Shown here: piece after piece, positions 12,736 to 20,414 of the stretch
Layout of the letters: the number at the start of each line of letters is the position of its first letter
Position numbering within the stretch: position 1 is the first letter of the stretch
Virus record (IMG/VR): IMGVR_UViG_3300036466_000104
Location: 1 to 20,582 of that record
Source: a virus
Strand: one strand, 5' to 3'
Length of the DNA stretch: 20,582 nucleotides
Position numbers and translations under genes: made by a program
The notes under the pieces: generated by a model
What the model saw: only the letters and a program-made list of their open reading frames with translations
Told to the model about the DNA's origin: nothing
Databases searched by the model: none

Positions 12736-15494
12736 CGATTGACCGTGAGTATGAGACTGTCGGTCATTTTATCCTTGCTGAGTTTCCTGCTGCAAGCCGT
12801 GAGACACTATTAGACCTGTTGTTCTTCGACGGTGAAGTCCTTGGCCACCAGATAGACACTAAAACCGAACACAGTGCATTTATCGACGTCAATGAAGGTG
12901 TCATAGCTGTCACTCATGACTCAATGCTACCACGTGAACCAGCTACGTGGGGTTACATTATTGTCGCGGTCATTTTCGCTGCTGCGGCTATACTGTTGGC
13001 ACCGAGCATCCCTGATGTGTCTACTGACCAACAGGGTTCGACTAACCGTCTCGGTGATACCACTAACAGTGTGAGACTGAATAAGCGTATTGACGACATT
13101 TTCGGGACAGTCAGCAAACACATGCCGTCACTGTGGCAGGTGCCGTACCGTATCGGGGTTGATAACGAGGAAACTGAGGTACTGTTTCTCTGTGTAGGTC
13201 GTGGTAAATACGACATTAACACCAATAACTGGTATGACGGTGACACCCCTGTCGTCAATATCCCCAATGCTGCGGTGAGTATCTATGAGCCTGGCACACA
13301 TCCGGGTAACGGGTCACCTGCTCAACAGATTGGCGACCTGGTTACAGAACCTCTCGGTATTTATCGCCAGTCGAATGACCTTAACCCTGCAGAATTATTA
13401 CCACCTAATGAACTGGAAAATGCCGGTATCAAGTGGCAGATCACAGGGACTGCAACTAGCGCAACATTAACCGCAACCAGTATCCCTGATGGTTTTAAGT
13501 TTTCCGAATACTACACTGTCGGCCAACTGCTCACTTTATCAGGTGTGATTTACGCAGCGGATGACGGTACGATTACCCTTTATGAATATGACGTTGGCAA
13601 TACTTACTATAACTCAAAGGTGTACTCAAAAGTAACCAATCCTGTTGATCTCAGTGAAGGAGGGACACTTCAATACGAGGTGACTGCTGTTACGTCAGAC
13701 TCTATCACCGTTGACGTTCCAACGGATGCAAGTACCGAGGTGAAAGACGCCTTGGCCGCTATGACTAACTACGTTCCTGTTGAAAGTGCGTATCTACTCA
13801 CATCCAGTAGTGGTTTAAATGTGTACTCTGATGACAGGTATGTTCTGTACACACCGCTGTTCGACAAGGTTGACGACGGTGAGGGTGGTTTCAATTATTA
13901 CCCTGTCACTGTCAGCGATCAAGAATACACACCTTTAATATCAGTGCCTTTCTCCAATGGTATTGGTCCATTATTTGTACCAAACGGTGCCACAGAGATA
14001 ATATTGAACTTCGTCAGCACCAGTGGTTTCTATAACCTCAATGGCAGTTCAGAGGTTGCCGTCGATGCCAATATTAGGATCACTAACATCGAACTCGATA
14101 GTAACGGAGTCGAGACGGGTAACTTTACCGTCACTAATTTCCCTTATTCAAGTAATGAGATTAAGTTGCGTTTCTCGGTGTTCCAGACCGCACGAATAGC
14201 ACTGCCTTACACGTATAGTAAAGTGTTTGTTGAACGTACCACAGACCGTGATAAGTCCAGTAATGTCAGTAATGTCGATAAAATCGAATGGCGTGATTTC
14301 TACAGCTATGAACCTGTGTCGGTGTCAAGCTTTGGTGACGTGACTACCGCTCATGTGGTCATACCAAGTAACTCGCAATCTCGACTTGTTAAAGAGCGTA
14401 AACAGAATGTTGATTTAACCCGTAAGATCACCCAATACCTCGGCAACGGTAGTTTCGGAACCACTGAGAGTCATGCGACCGACGACTTTAGTCAGATCCT
14501 CATTCATACTGCACTTGACCCACGTATTGGCCGGTTACAGTTAAAGCATATCAATGCCGACGGTTTCTTACTGCTCAAACAGGAGATTCTTGATTACTTC
14601 GGTGACCCCGAGATGATTAAGTTTGGTTATGACTTCGATGATGCGGGATTGACCTTCCAGGACACGTTCATTGCTATATGTCAGGCTGTGATGTGCTTAC
14701 CTTACGTTCAGCAGGGCGTATATGATGCGTTCTTCGAGAAGTTGCAGCCGACGTCATCGATGCAAATAACCGTTCGTAACAAGTTACCTGACTCTGAAAC
14801 CCGTAACACCACGTATGAACGTGATAACGACGGTGTACAAATTACCTACCGTGATAACAATGGTGGTGTTAGTAATGTCATTGAGTACCCCACAGATGGT
14901 TCAAGTATTAACCCTGAAACCGAAGACGTTAAAGGCATCACCACCGAGTTACAGGCTTACCGATATGCACTGCGTAAGTACAACAAACAGGTTCACCGTC
15001 GCGTCGCTGTGACATTTGACGTCGATGATTTCGGTCGTAACGTGATACCCGGTAAACGTATTGATAGCCCGGATAGCACCCGTTTCACTAAGCGCCCTGG
15101 TGTTACCGATGGTTACCGTGTGTACGATGGCCACGTAGTTGAGGTTAAGGGTTTGAATGTGGAATTGTCCGACCCTGTTGAGTTCACACCAGGTGAAGAT
15201 CATTACATCACGTTTACCACTGAAACCGGTGATATCAGTAGTGCTATTCTATGTACACAGGTGAGTGACAACGTGGTTCAGTTATCATCACTACCATCGG
15301 AAGCGATTTACGACGGGTATAGTCGTGATAAAACAACCTATGTGTTTGCTTCAGAGCAACTTAGAGATTCGGTGGCATTGATACCACAGACAATCGAGTC
15401 TAATATAGGTGTTGACGGTGTTGAAACCAACACTATTAACTCTATTAACTATTCTGACCGCTACTATGACGGTGATACGGAGTACCCAGCATGA
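12693..15494 (+). CDS. Tail-tip central hub protein (gpJ-like) with fused membrane segment
   Basis: The 933-residue protein is the likely central tail hub or host-specificity protein. Residues 1-80 form a small domain. Residues 86-104 (WGYIIVAVIFAAAAILLAP) are a clear hydrophobic segment like that of lambda gpI, which is a separate protein in lambda. The hub part covers about residues 105-240 (IDDIFGTVSKHMPSLWQVPYR and VLFLCVGRGKY) and 580-850 (AYRYALRKYNKQVHRRVAVTFD, GRNVIPGKRI). Between them are beta-rich inserted domains (about 240-560). Start ATG at 12693 has AAGGTGG upstream. The stop overlaps the fibre start as ATGA. Confidence 0.85.
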   Translation: MVRIRYYEDPTKDVTIDREYETVGHFILAEFPAASRETLLDLLFFDGEVLGHQIDTKTEHSAFIDVNEGVIAVTHDSMLPREPATWGYIIVAVIFAAAAILLAPSIPDVSTDQQGSTNRLGDTTNSVRLNKRIDDIFGTVSKHMPSLWQVPYRIGVDNEETEVLFLCVGRGKYDINTNNWYDGDTPVVNIPNAAVSIYEPGTHPGNGSPAQQIGDLVTEPLGIYRQSNDLNPAELLPPNELENAGIKWQITGTATSATLTATSIPDGFKFSEYYTVGQLLTLSGVIYAADDGTITLYEYDVGNTYYNSKVYSKVTNPVDLSEGGTLQYEVTAVTSDSITVDVPTDASTEVKDALAAMTNYVPVESAYLLTSSSGLNVYSDDRYVLYTPLFDKVDDGEGGFNYYPVTVSDQEYTPLISVPFSNGIGPLFVPNGATEIILNFVSTSGFYNLNGSSEVAVDANIRITNIELDSNGVETGNFTVTNFPYSSNEIKLRFSVFQTARIALPYTYSKVFVERTTDRDKSSNVSNVDKIEWRDFYSYEPVSVSSFGDVTTAHVVIPSNSQSRLVKERKQNVDLTRKITQYLGNGSFGTTESHATDDFSQILIHTALDPRIGRLQLKHINADGFLLLKQEILDYFGDPEMIKFGYDFDDAGLTFQDTFIAICQAVMCLPYVQQGVYDAFFEKLQPTSSMQITVRNKLPDSETRNTTYERDNDGVQITYRDNNGGVSNVIEYPTDGSSINPETEDVKGITTELQAYRYALRKYNKQVHRRVAVTFDVDDFGRNVIPGKRIDSPDSTRFTKRPGVTDGYRVYDGHVVEVKGLNVELSDPVEFTPGEDHYITFTTETGDISSAILCTQVSDNVVQLSSLPSEAIYDGYSRDKTTYVFASEQLRDSVALIPQTIESNIGVDGVETNTINSINYSDRYYDGDTEYPA

Positions 15495-16975
15495 CATTAA
15501 CTAAAGAGATTATAGAGGCTGCTGAGAAAGACTTTCAGTTTGTCGCCGACGTAGTTGAAGGAACCAGTGACACTGTACTGAACCCGAGAACTGGTCAAGT
15601 GCAAAAAACGTTGCCGAAGATCATTGATGATTTGGATTGGTCTTATGTTGGGTTGTTTGCTGATGGTGTGACATTCACAGACAAGACGGATTTCGCAGTC
15701 GATGCAGTTGGCACACAGTGGATTTACACTGGGTCACTTCCGTTTTCTGCTGCTGCTGGCACTGTGCCTAGTGAGCCGACATATCAGGTGGTACATGTTA
15801 GAAGTGCTGATGCAATCAGCAATGCAAATGGTGGGAGCGTTCAGGATTTTATTGATGCTCAGTATACTACCGTTGCAGAGTTAGCGACTGGAAAGTTTCA
15901 TGTAGGTCAGTATGTGCGATTAACAGACAGAGCAATGGGATTGTTTTTAGTACAATCTGGCGGCACACCAGACGGGAAAGGTGTTCTTGACGCAGGTAAC
16001 AGCAATACGGCTGTATTAAAATACACCCAATTTATGAACATCCGTGCATTCGGCGCGAAGCTCGATGGCTCTATTGATGATTCAATTGCAATGCAAAGGA
16101 TGTCTGACCTTAATATTACAGGCATAGTTGATACAGATTACTATGCAGAAACAGATGTGATTGGTGGCAGTTTTATTTCATCTAAACCAGTTAAAAATTT
16201 ATCCTCTGGTGCAGTTTATGTAAAAAACACATCTGAAAAGTCAGTGTTAAATAAAATTGAACTTATTGCGCATAGGGGTTTAGCGGGTGCTAATGTTCAA
16301 AATTCTATGGCTGCATTTGTAAATGCCGCCGCACTTGGTTTTAAATCAATGGAGCTAGATGTTAACTACAGCGCAGATGGTACTTTCTATGTGTTTCATG
16401 ATGCAGTAGTAGACAACATCACCACAGGTACAGGTACGCTCAGGGAACTAACTGACGAATATTTAGACGGCCTAACATTTTCGTTTGTTTCAGGGAAATA
16501 CTCAGATATGCGGATTTTAAAGCTGGATGAGTTTTTAAAAATTGCATCACGCAGAGGATGGAAACTCTATATTGAATTAAAAGAGGTATGGGATGACACC
16601 AAAATATTTGAAATGATAGATTTACTCGAGCAGTATGGGTTCAATAACGATGCGTGTCATTTGCAAGCCTCAACAGTATTGTATTTGGAGACAATCAGAG
16701 GTTACTCCGAAAATATCGGAGTGGCACTTATAACTGGGGTGAGCACACTTCCAGCAATAAAAGACTTATTAGTCAGACTCTCTCAACTACATCACGCTGT
16801 AACCATCAGCGATAAGTCTGTAATGACAAGACCTTTTGTTGAGTTTTGCCAAGGCATAGGGGTTGGGGTTATTGCATATACCACTGTAAAAGAATATGAG
16901 GCGATAACATTGCTTAGTAATGGTGTGTCGAGAATAATGACTGATTGCCCACTGGTAGTAGGAGGATATAGATAA
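15491..16975 (+). CDS. Tail fibre/spike with GDPD domain
   Basis: The 494-residue protein starts with a short virion-attachment region and phage-type spike stem (residues 1 to ~205: LDWSYVGLFADGVTF, YVRLTDRAMGLFLVQSGGTPDG, NIRAFGAKLDGSIDD). From residue ~257 it is a glycerophosphodiester phosphodiesterase TIM barrel. The usual residues are present: A260-H261-R262-G263, E288 and D290 (MELDV), H303-D304, and E362-K364 (YIELK). The usual PENT sequence after HRG is replaced by VQNS. The domain would cut glycerol phosphate linkages in a surface polymer such as capsule or O-antigen. No trimerising C-terminal domain is seen. DNA from about 15900 on is AT-rich. GGAG lies eight bases before the ATG. 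Confidence 0.86.
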   Translation: MTLTKEIIEAAEKDFQFVADVVEGTSDTVLNPRTGQVQKTLPKIIDDLDWSYVGLFADGVTFTDKTDFAVDAVGTQWIYTGSLPFSAAAGTVPSEPTYQVVHVRSADAISNANGGSVQDFIDAQYTTVAELATGKFHVGQYVRLTDRAMGLFLVQSGGTPDGKGVLDAGNSNTAVLKYTQFMNIRAFGAKLDGSIDDSIAMQRMSDLNITGIVDTDYYAETDVIGGSFISSKPVKNLSSGAVYVKNTSEKSVLNKIELIAHRGLAGANVQNSMAAFVNAAALGFKSMELDVNYSADGTFYVFHDAVVDNITTGTGTLRELTDEYLDGLTFSFVSGKYSDMRILKLDEFLKIASRRGWKLYIELKEVWDDTKIFEMIDLLEQYGFNNDACHLQASTVLYLETIRGYSENIGVALITGVSTLPAIKDLLVRLSQLHHAVTISDKSVMTRPFVEFCQGIGVGVIAYTTVKEYEAITLLSNGVSRIMTDCPLVVGGYR

Positions 16976-17877: not shown

Positions 17878-18423
17878 TCATACCAACCCATCAACTAACT
17901 TCCTAGCCTCGGCAACGTAAAACGCGATGTCGAGGTTTTTTATTGTTAACCCACCGCGAATGTCATTAACCACGGTAACACGGTTACCAGCGTTAATGCC
18001 TATACGACGCATAGGTGGTTCTGGTGTTGGTGGTGGGATACGGACATACTTACCTGACGGTGCTTTATCGCGGTTAACAGTCTTACCGTTATCGACGTGT
18101 TTCCAGTGAGGCTTAGTGTTCCAGTTATCCCGCTGTAACTGAGTTGGTTCCATTACTTTAAACAGGTAGTCACCATCGGTGCTGATGTAGTAACGGTTGA
18201 CTCTCTGGATTAACTGCTCACCATGGTACAACTCAGTCTTACGGTTAACCTTAGTCCTGAGCATAAAGTCCATTGGTTCAATACTCAGGTGACGACGGAT
18301 AAACGCCTCGATGTTCTCACCGCGGATCAATGCAGCTTCAGCGGCCTTGGCCACAACCACGGCGCTGTGATTTTGGTGCCAACCGAGGTCGTAATTAAAT
18401 ACCCCTTTACGTTTAATTTTCAT
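17878..18423 (-). CDS. DNA polymerase family B, C-terminal piece
   Basis: The 181-residue protein begins MKIKRKGVFNYDLGWHQNHS and continues with VVVAKAAEAALIRGENIEAFI, EPMDFMLRTKVNR, LIQRVNRYYISTDGDYLFKV, GINAGNRVTVVNDI and AEARKLVDGLV. This is the thumb/C-terminal region of compact phage family B polymerases, continuing directly from the NNYIGVLED end of the upstream piece, with nothing missing as far as I can judge. I chose ATG 18423, not the in-frame ATG at 18447, because AAAGAAAGG lies nine bases upstream and the first shared residues match there. That ribosome site is inside the endonuclease gene. The two pieces total 662 residues. Confidence 0.85.
   Translation of the reverse strand: MKIKRKGVFNYDLGWHQNHSAVVVAKAAEAALIRGENIEAFIRRHLSIEPMDFMLRTKVNRKTELYHGEQLIQRVNRYYISTDGDYLFKVMEPTQLQRDNWNTKPHWKHVDNGKTVNRDKAPSGKYVRIPPPTPEPPMRRIGINAGNRVTVVNDIRGGLTIKNLDIAFYVAEARKLVDGLV
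17907..17941 (+). terminator. Rho-independent terminator of the late operon
   Basis: RNA from 17907-17935 folds with CCTCG pairing CGAGG, continuing through a G-U and two more pairs, an A-A mismatch and a short inner helix around an AAAAC loop. Six T residues follow (17936-17941). It is oriented for plus-strand transcription. It lies inside the 3' coding end of the C-terminal polymerase gene on the opposite strand, so the two transcripts overlap there. Confidence 0.82.
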
Positions 18424-18976
18424 AAGAGTAAGCCTTTCTTTTAGCATGGTTTGGATGGTATTTGAAATTTATTTCTGCTTGTTTTCTAGCAGCAACGGCG
18501 TCTTCAAAATCGTCAAAATAACCCAGAACGTATCTAACCCCTTTATGACTAATCCTAGCCACCCACTTTGATCTCCCTCTGTAGTTCGTTCTATCCGACC
18601 AAGTAACACCTCTCACCCCACTTTTACAATCTTTTCTGACCCCTTGGTTTCTTGAGTTCTCAAAAGCAGAAACCTGTCTTAGATTAACCCATCGATTATC
18701 TAGCCTGTCCCCATTAATATGGTCAATCTCATCGTCAGGGTGACCGCCAGTCATCCACAACCAAATCAATCGGTGGACAAGACATGTTTTACCAAACACC
18801 GCACACCAATAATACCCACGGTTATTTTTACCTCGCACTGGTTTAGATATGTTTTGTAGTTTTCCATATGAGTCATACCGCTTAATACGGGTTAGTTCAC
18901 CGGTAAGAGCATTGTAATCAAACCAATCCTTCACCATCGACTGCGTTATTTCGCTTCTGTCAGAAACCCTAATCAT
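18413..18976 (-). CDS. HNH-AP2 homing endonuclease splitting the polymerase gene
   Basis: The 187-residue protein is a free-standing-type homing endonuclease. Residues ~14-68 resemble the usual DYNALTGELTR opening. The HNH domain covers ~68-100, with H69 (LVHRLIWLWM), D85-H86 and N88 in DEIDHINGD, and N94/N98 after it. An AP2-like DNA-binding domain follows at ~119-168 (SGVRGVTWSDR, KWVARISHKGVRYVLGYFDDFEDAVAAR). I chose ATG 18976 over an upstream TTG. The ATG overlaps the premature stop of the upstream polymerase piece, and the stop lies within the first codons of the downstream piece. GC is lower than either flank: 32% at 18421-18480 and 35% at 18841-18900, against about 50% in polymerase lines sampled by hand. 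Confidence 0.92.
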   Translation of the reverse strand: MIRVSDRSEITQSMVKDWFDYNALTGELTRIKRYDSYGKLQNISKPVRGKNNRGYYWCAVFGKTCLVHRLIWLWMTGGHPDDEIDHINGDRLDNRWVNLRQVSAFENSRNQGVRKDCKSGVRGVTWSDRTNYRGRSKWVARISHKGVRYVLGYFDDFEDAVAARKQAEINFKYHPNHAKRKAYSYEN

Positions 18977-20414
18977 CTTCAAGCACCCCGATATAATTAT
19001 TAACGTCTTTAACAGCCAACATCTTGTAATTCTGAAACTCCAATGTCAAACCAGTGTGTTTATCTGACCATTCACATAATTCATGCAGGTATTTCTCGTA
19101 GTACCGTGGTATACGACAACAAATACCATCCGTATTGACAAAAATTAATTTAAAATCAGGAATGTGCGTCATTAACAATTCACACAACATACTTATTATA
19201 AACTGACCGTTTACCGTGATTGCCATTGTATACTGAGGGTCGTAAAAAGGACTGTACTTGTCGTTTGACTTACCATACGACCCATTCAACCCTAGCTTAT
19301 ACGCCTTTCCCATTGCTGTTTGTTTGCCTAGAACCATGCGTTCGTTGAACATGTACGCCATTGCATCGCACCACCCTATACCGAGGTGGGCAGGAAACAC
19401 CTTATTGGCAATGGAGATACGAGGATAAAATGATTGGTAGTCAATATCGACTATCACATGTGTTTCATCACTCCTAATCACCTGTGTAGGAACACACCCA
19501 TGCAACCCACCAGCACCAAAGTCGAACGTGAAGCCGTTTAAAGTGGCTGAGGTGAATTTAGTTTCCTCGTCGTCATCAGATTCTTTGAAGAAACCCTTAA
19601 TTTTAGTTGGGTCAATTACGGAGCGACGGAAATAGTCGAGCACCTGGTTAAATTCCTTGGTTTCAAATTGGATGTACGGGAAGATAATGTCGTTAACCAC
19701 AATCTCGTTACGGATGGTCTGGTTGTACTTGCTGACTTGAACCCCACGTTTTTGTAATTCGATTTTAACGATTTCCTCGCCAATCTTGGTGTCGTTGAAG
19801 TTAGTGAAATCTCGGCCGTACTTCTCAGACAGTTCATCACGGAAAGCCAACATCTTACGAGTGTGACCGAAAAACTCACTGGTGGCGTCAACGTCATCAT
19901 CGTTATAGGCCAACATCTCGCGTGACTGTTCCCATGTGACAGGTTGGTTCCAATCAACCATCATTTCATTGATGTTATCGAGACGCATGTTAAATTCGAG
20001 CAGCTTTAGGCTGGTGGCCTTTGCCTTGTTATCGAAATGATGGATTTTCAATAGGTCCACCTGGGGTACATAGCGTTGGTCAGGCCATATAAAGTGGCTA
20101 AAATCCTTCATCTGACCATTACCGGCCTCAATGATGCTGCGGGATTTGTTGTAGAGAATGGCGTTATTGATGATACCGTTGTAGTCCATGATCAGGTGCA
20201 ACATCGGGTAATCATACCACTCGTTGTTGTACCCGGTCATACGCCCACCACTGGCAGCAATCTGGTGCAGGAAGGCACATAGTTCACGACCTTGGTTCAC
20301 CCATTCGGATATTTCAAATGTCCACCGTGCGCCGTCTTCCTCACGCTTACACTTGAATGAGAAGAAATTAGGGACACACTCGATGTCATAGGTGTAGTGG
20401 GCGGTATAGTTCAT
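18969..20414 (-). CDS. DNA polymerase family B, exonuclease-palm piece
   Basis: The 481-residue protein holds all catalytic motifs of a proofreading family B polymerase. The 3'-5' exonuclease has D10-E12 (TYDIECVPNF), the Exo II D68 in GYNNEWYDYPML, and Exo III Y170-D174 (AYNDDDVD). The polymerase has motif A D325 in DIDYQSFYPR, motif B K373-N377-Y380-G381 (YKLGLNGSYGK), and motif C as NTDG at 427-430, where the classic DTD has N for the first D. It stops just after VKDVNNYIGVLED, the KxY-like palm/thumb boundary, because the endonuclease gene interrupts it. The ATG overlaps the stop of the upstream gene (ATGA). It should replicate phage DNA once joined by the C-terminal piece. Confidence 0.93.
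   Translation of the reverse strand: MNYTAHYTYDIECVPNFFSFKCKREEDGARWTFEISEWVNQGRELCAFLHQIAASGGRMTGYNNEWYDYPMLHLIMDYNGIINNAILYNKSRSIIEAGNGQMKDFSHFIWPDQRYVPQVDLLKIHHFDNKAKATSLKLLEFNMRLDNINEMMVDWNQPVTWEQSREMLAYNDDDVDATSEFFGHTRKMLAFRDELSEKYGRDFTNFNDTKIGEEIVKIELQKRGVQVSKYNQTIRNEIVVNDIIFPYIQFETKEFNQVLDYFRRSVIDPTKIKGFFKESDDDEETKFTSATLNGFTFDFGAGGLHGCVPTQVIRSDETHVIVDIDYQSFYPRISIANKVFPAHLGIGWCDAMAYMFNERMVLGKQTAMGKAYKLGLNGSYGKSNDKYSPFYDPQYTMAITVNGQFIISMLCELLMTHIPDFKLIFVNTDGICCRIPRYYEKYLHELCEWSDKHTGLTLEFQNYKMLAVKDVNNYIGVLEDD

Follow-up and report, generated by a model that had tools for sequence, protein, structure and literature searches.

The window analysed here, a 20,582 nt stretch of the IMG/VR virus record IMGVR_UViG_3300036466_000104 (positions 1–20,582), carries on its minus strand the two pieces of a family-B DNA polymerase gene, separated by a gene for a homing endonuclease. 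The N piece (18969..20414) specifies 481 aa comprising the 3'-5' exonuclease and the palm, ends in ...VKDVNNYIGVLEDD and is closed by a TAG stop codon at 18971–18969. In a profile search it matched positions 53–509 of the 663 positions of phrog_1252 (E-value 1.7 × 10−129), whilst the C piece (17878..18423; 181 aa, thumb and C-terminal region) took up the same profile at 512–649 (E-value 3.2 × 10−24). Motifs A, B and C and the exonuclease motifs of family B are all found within the N piece (DIE, NNEWYD, YNDDDVDAT, DIDYQSFYP, KLGLNGSYG and NTDG). A further profile, phrog_15833 (192 positions), matched only the thumb piece, covering 179 of the 181 residues (E-value 9.3 × 10−49), a sign that other phages had previously yielded separate thumb pieces of this kind. 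Published variants of the crAss polymerase belong to family A and are unrelated to this enzyme.

The free-standing HNH-AP2 endonuclease gene (18413..18976, minus strand; 187 aa; phrog_99) occupies the entire gap and overlaps both polymerase pieces. Its ATG at 18976 overlaps the stop codon of the N piece in ATGATTAG (18969..18976), a junction of the form ATGATTAR that is common to locus L045, and its TAA at 18415–18413 falls within the first codons of the C piece, the ATG of which lies at 18423; this second overlap, ATGAAAATTAA (18413..18423), is also found in Klebsiella phage KpVB3 and in L037, L113 and L114. The first-pass annotation had described this arrangement, and upon re-reading of the sequence all of its coordinates for the split locus proved correct to the base. 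It had also credited the C piece with a ribosome site of its own, which was borne out in part: the Shine–Dalgarno-like AAAGAAAGG (18441–18433, minus strand) is indeed positioned nine bases 5' of the ATG, but it is weak (−3.2 kcal/mol), being matched by 26 % of random sites (background fraction 0.26). From the start/stop overlaps it is plausible that the three genes form a translationally coupled unit.

A second IMG/VR contig from another record is 100 % identical to the window over 8405 bases, including the polymerase locus, which, together with the same layout in many isolates, rules out a sequencing artefact. Reading TAG as a sense codon was likewise rejected, as translation would meet a TGA in the same frame no more than three codons later. 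Elsewhere in the window, on the plus strand at 15491–16975, we noted a 494 aa tail-region protein with a C-terminal glycerophosphodiester phosphodiesterase domain (GDPD, E-value 3.9 × 10−18), which, given weak, tail-spike-like matches at its N-terminus, may be an enzyme-bearing tail fibre.

Intact homologues and the position of the break

In order to align the gap with an uninterrupted homologue, as had been proposed in the first-pass annotation, we sought intact polymerase genes among related phages. The close IMG/VR relatives L008 and L009 carry a single gene of 688 aa, and uninterrupted genes are also present in Vibrio phages 159E43-1b, 1.004.O and D63 and in Aeromonas phage KLEA5, as well as in all four of the relatives (4/4) recovered from bacterial genomes. 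These homologues do not stop at residue 481 but continue through the gap into the thumb, and the C piece of the window is 66 % identical to the thumb of the L008 polymerase. L009 is colinear with most of the window in a mosaic fashion, at 65–96 % DNA identity. As the matches to phrog_1252 are consecutive and the intact homologues continuous across the gap, the split gene is not a product of chance. A clean empty site is offered by L041 (NNYIAEYTDGKLKRKG) when compared with L037 (NNYIAVYE* ... MKIKRKG), where about two residues of the turn have been lost and one Met gained.

The break had been placed at a domain boundary, and a structure model upheld this. An AlphaFold2 model of the intact L008 polymerase (41 homologues; pLDDT 92, pTM 0.89) puts it between palm and thumb, in the loop joining strands 480–485 and 500–504, i.e. 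the turn of a β-hairpin. The loop varies in length, whilst it is flanked by the invariant N479-x-Y481 on one side and by the conserved K502-R-x-G505 (R in 41/42) on the other. The best PDB matches to this model in Foldseek were the family-B polymerases 9N, Deep Vent, KOD and Tgo (E-values of about 1 × 10−12 to 1 × 10−11, with TM scores of only about 0.4). Judging from the model, the last strand of the first chain and the first strand of the second may pair with one another despite the break and would in that way direct how the two chains assemble.

Both pieces have start and stop codons of their own and are conserved, and both polymerase chains are under purifying selection. The dN/dS values of thumb pieces compared between split genes were 0.07–0.18, against 0.10–0.13 for intact thumbs (related, non-independent pairs), with about 0.09 in L113–L115, a clade in which every member is split; the N pieces gave 0.04–0.15 and the endonucleases 0.03–0.2. 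The thumb of the window compared with that of L008 gave 0.24–0.32, which is still purifying, but looser. Ribosome sites had a median background rank of 0.046 at thumb starts, 0.036 at N pieces and 0.32 (weak) at endonuclease starts; the thumb start of the window is among the weaker, whereas most other split loci have a good one.

Recurrence of the split and exchange of the endonucleases

A break at this position is also seen in Klebsiella phages of the Jedunavirus group, where we inspected 11 cases (KpVB3, RCIP0030, cmc20193, JD001, BUCT791, RCIP0081, RCIP0033, KpTRp1, RCIP0045, BUCT_49532 and JustaPhage) and judged about 22 from match spans, and is likewise found in Edwardsiella phage PVN06 and Acinetobacter phage phiAB441. 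Amongst distinct IMG/VR polymerases, 10/66 were split at the palm/thumb turn in a thumb-only search, and 15/72 in all. Intact alleles exist within the same genera as split phages (1611E-K2-1, ZCEC13 and MSW-3), and at least 14 changes of the split state are counted on a maximum-likelihood tree of 92 polymerases (quick search, no bootstrap).

Four types of insert occupy the site: the HNH-AP2 type of the window; a second HNH type with AP2 (BUCT_49532, with L063 being similar); a Seg-type GIY-YIG endonuclease (KpTRp1, L033, L037, L044, L072, L079, L105 and phiAB441); and a zinc-ribbon GIY-YIG or T5orf172 type (BUCT791, JD001, RCIP0081 and JustaPhage). The latter is present in JD001 as an intact but unannotated ORF of 276 aa. 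In most split loci the endonuclease gene ends inside the first codons of the thumb gene. The palms of KpVB3 and BUCT_49532 are nearly identical, yet their endonucleases differ, so that endonucleases have displaced one another in situ. On these sequence comparisons, the palm/thumb turn is a hot spot for endonuclease insertion.

The endonuclease of the window has an HNH domain (Pfam HNH_3, E-value 6.9 × 10−14) in which H68, D85, H86 and N94 are invariant in ten relatives, and it aligns weakly with I-HmuI (1u3e), its nearest solved structure. Its AP2 domain lies below the Pfam threshold in its own sequence; the related endonuclease of BUCT_49532, however, has a Pfam AP2 match (E-value 5.6 × 10−10) and its alignment with the window protein extends through this region, whilst the predicted fold of the window protein superimposes on the AP2 domain of AtERF1 over 54 columns (rmsd 1.7, probability 1.00, E-value 0.09). 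A C-terminal AP2 DNA-binding domain is thus supported by a related protein and a predicted fold. The endonuclease shares 58 % identity with its counterpart in the polymerase locus of KpVB3. We rejected the idea that the entire cassette had recently come from a Klebsiella or Edwardsiella phage, for although the endonucleases are 56–61 % identical, the palm of the window is not close to theirs.

In Vibrio phage LMAVpS1 the polymerase is split with no insert (NNYIAVYE-TAA-TATT-ATG). Its thumb piece begins with MKLSHDPKQSGKIKRIG, resembling MKLTKNTSASGKIKRIG of L033 (shared pattern MKL.......SGKIKRIG), a locus with a GIY-YIG insert, and at the end of the palm (~60 residues) the two are reciprocal best matches (75 %). 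This fits a loss of the endonuclease with the split retained. A single frameshift would join the two LMAVpS1 frames, and the record may therefore be in error; four sister records from the same host strain have the same two adjacent matches.

A number of variants were seen beside these. In L027, L033, L037, L044, L079 and L105 the exon motif AATAACTAYATTGC (codons for NNYIA) is present in tandem with a degenerate second copy, and the N-piece stop lies inside that copy; with Seg-type GIY-YIG inserts these copies retain 10–13 of 14 bases, in the same register in 6/6, and shuffled sequences seldom match as well, L079 excepted. Possibly, the copy is a displaced duplicate of the cleavage site. L110 (2030–2263) and L111 are split at the palm/thumb boundary with a gap of 328 bases that holds just one ORF of 77 aa, for which we found no family match above threshold and no Rfam match. 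In phiAB441 (L120, 718–3560) the polymerase is in three pieces, in the order exonuclease, palm, GIY-YIG gene and thumb; the first of the breaks, between exonuclease and palm, is due to a frameshift, perhaps a sequencing error, whilst the palm/thumb break is at the hot-spot site. Flavobacterium phage Fpv1 (L121, 1171–4238) has a polymerase of the same family with a GIY-YIG gene elsewhere, inside motif A, where coding sequence is missing on both sides of the insertion, giving it an intron-type appearance. Lastly, in the Schitoviridae Vibrio phage JA-1 (L015, 3959–4582) and L035 there is a lone thumb-domain gene with no palm nearby, just upstream of which is a second thumb remnant in another frame.

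In several split polymerases, that of the window included, the palm sequence adjoining the insert has been replaced by divergent sequence. Similarity between the window and L008 (blastn) ends at 19496 and restarts at 18372, leaving a tract (18373..19495, minus strand) that spans the palm end, the endonuclease gene and the first thumb codons, and is a probable co-conversion tract. At the protein level, identity is 77–93 % just before residue 294, mostly 27–60 % beyond it (higher near motif B), and is back at 85 % after the first 12 residues of the thumb piece. The pair of PVN06 (split) and MSW-3 (intact) behaves similarly, with 93–100 % identity outside residues ~305–505 and 40–50 % over most of this stretch, directly before the insert. 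The palm deficit was at most 12 points in 42 close intact–intact pairs and up to 44 in split–intact pairs (the pairs are non-independent), as would be expected if homing co-converts flanking DNA. For KpTRp1, L037, L044 and L079, all of which have Seg-type GIY-YIG inserts, there is no or almost no palm replacement relative to intact relatives. The last ~60 palm residues of the window are reciprocal best matches with L045 (55–56 %, the mean being 36 %). L045 is a distant phage, 38 % identical in the exonuclease, which shares with the window the type of endonuclease and the ATGATTAR junction; the endonuclease would thus appear to have arrived together with flanking palm sequence.

Origin and persistence of the proposed two-chain polymerase

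The explanation we favour, with a probability of about 0.86, is a free-standing homing endonuclease in a split polymerase gene, the two chains of which reassemble; the endonuclease would spread by homing with co-conversion of the palm. The HNH-AP2 gene sits in the turn where the last strand of the palm leads into the first strand of the thumb, so that the polymerase is made as two separate chains, with exonuclease-palm, endonuclease and thumb each read as a separate protein. The two polymerase chains would then form an active enzyme by associating non-covalently at the interrupted hairpin; their assembly and activity are suggested by the selection on them and by the growth of cultured split phages. 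The endonuclease, for its part, would cut uninterrupted polymerase genes of co-infecting phages, whereupon repair would copy its gene into the cut allele and carry flanking palm sequence along; that it cuts the insert-free allele and spreads is what the empty sites, the turnover of inserts and the co-conversion-like tract point to. Against this explanation stand the weak ribosome site and somewhat higher dN/dS of the window thumb piece, the possibility that another polymerase is encoded outside the window, and the missing palm replacement in the four split polymerases with Seg-type GIY-YIG genes. The claim that the endonuclease split the polymerase stood in that it fills the gap and intact relatives exist, but not in full: it need not have made the split in the lineage of the window, as another split phage may have donated it along with a piece of palm.

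Related to this is the possibility that the split came first, by a frameshift or small insertion, and that endonucleases settled later in the divided gene. The insert-free split of LMAVpS1, the several unrelated endonuclease families in the same gap and gene 43 of phages 25 and 44RR, for which the order was not settled either (PMC2988022), all lend themselves to this order of events, which we nonetheless consider unlikely, as LMAVpS1 looks like a case of loss (by its thumb start and palm-end match to L033) and intact and endonuclease-bearing alleles alternate inside close clades. Less probable still is a polymerase that is dead or decaying after the insertion, with another enzyme replicating the phage. 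The window is a genome fragment, and hence another polymerase could be encoded elsewhere in the genome; related Vibrio and Aeromonas phages have a primase-polymerase gene upstream, and JA-1 has its orphan thumb gene. Opposing this, both pieces are open and under purifying selection even in all-split clades such as L113–L115, the exonuclease and palm motifs are retained, and cultured split phages grow.

Very little weight falls on the two readings in which the frames are rejoined. Group I introns with HNH endonucleases occur in phage polymerase genes, and I-HmuI is the closest solved structure to the window endonuclease, as might be expected had the gene come within a self-splicing intron from which the polymerase mRNA is rejoined into one frame. 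The interrupted tape measure gene of ICP1, which is spliced (PMC10448857), offers a further precedent. Here, however, the gap is coding throughout, with overlaps on either side, and a ribozyme core would have nowhere to lie; thumb pieces regularly begin with a start codon of their own, in most cases preceded by a ribosome site; and Rfam gave no match in the window or 14 related loci, with the gathering threshold applied to these 15 sources and a relaxed threshold to the junction. The separate frames of the first-pass annotation accordingly stand, and we regard an intron as highly improbable. Ribosomal frameshifting that fuses the polymerase with the endonuclease, or all three frames, is the least probable reading: both window junctions are short overlaps into the +1 frame, but the spacing from N-piece stop to endonuclease start ranges from overlap to about 55 bases among relatives, such that no frame relation is conserved, and no fused gene was seen. 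A split intein was also discarded, as neither piece has residues beyond the polymerase alignment at the break. Of the three outcomes that the first-pass annotation had named as fatal to its reading (a spliced RNA, one continuous polypeptide, or homologues that naturally end at residue 481), none turned up in these sequence comparisons.

The precedents that the first-pass annotation had invoked, Aeh1 nrdA and gene 43 of Aeromonas phages, split by endonuclease genes with function kept, were confirmed by a review (PMC2988022). Gene 43 of Aeromonas phage 25 is arranged as 43A, seg43 and 43B, the products of 43A and 43B co-purifying and being active (Petrov, Ratnayaka and Karam 2010, as given in PMC2988022), and the same review describes gene 43 of 44RR as split with no endonuclease between the pieces; whether the endonuclease made the split was left unclear (PMC2988022). 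Like the window, these are family-B phage polymerases in two pieces, with a homing endonuclease between them in phage 25, whilst 44RR parallels LMAVpS1. They differ in that gp43 is T4-type, of a different PolB family and associated with a GIY-YIG (seg) gene, whereas the window belongs to a phrog_1252 family with HNH-AP2 (in relatives also GIY-YIG) genes at one hairpin turn and with known intact relatives. In Aeromonas phage Aeh1, nrdA is split by mobE, an HNH endonuclease gene, and the two polypeptides form an active enzyme (PMC2988022); as in the window, an essential enzyme gene is divided by an HNH gene, with a start/stop overlap that suggests coupled translation, although the enzyme is a ribonucleotide reductase, the endonuclease MobE-type and the case a single phage. 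A split B-type polymerase, also a family-B enzyme of two polypeptides, is known from Methanobacterium thermoautotrophicum (Kelman et al. 1999, cited in PMC3984812), where it is an archaeal cellular enzyme with no endonuclease at the break. The HNH-AP2 (IPA-HNH) and T5orf172 phage endonucleases covered in PMC10448857 are of the same classes as the inserts found here; there, 29 % of phage HNH-AP2 genes are near DNA polymerase genes, such genes are described near, bracketing or within introns of essential genes, and in the passages on them we found no polymerase split at the palm/thumb turn.

Active split gp43 and NrdA (PMC2988022) and HNH-AP2 genes near polymerases (PMC10448857) make the principle an already known one. 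We found no published description of this Jedunavirus split in a literature search that covered subscription journals little, and within the literature searched none of the involvement of this polymerase family, of one common turn, of endonuclease families replacing each other, of a split that persists without its endonuclease or of the linked replacement of the palm. We see an even chance that these add up to a general picture, in which the turn serves as a landing site where endonuclease families interchange, homing repeatedly swaps the palm, and some lineages have become obligate two-chain users after loss, as in LMAVpS1. Earlier work had not decided whether homing endonucleases make split genes or move into existing ones, or whether a split can outlast its endonuclease; as intact, endonuclease-bearing and insert-free alleles exist in related phages, several of them cultured, both questions become testable. 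The findings also suggest that selfish genes can drive exchange of the catalytic domain of a polymerase, and they mark the palm/thumb turn as a surface site where PolB tolerates being cut in two, which is useful for split-polymerase design. Genomes with the split layout are currently annotated as having a 'hypothetical protein' or two polymerases.
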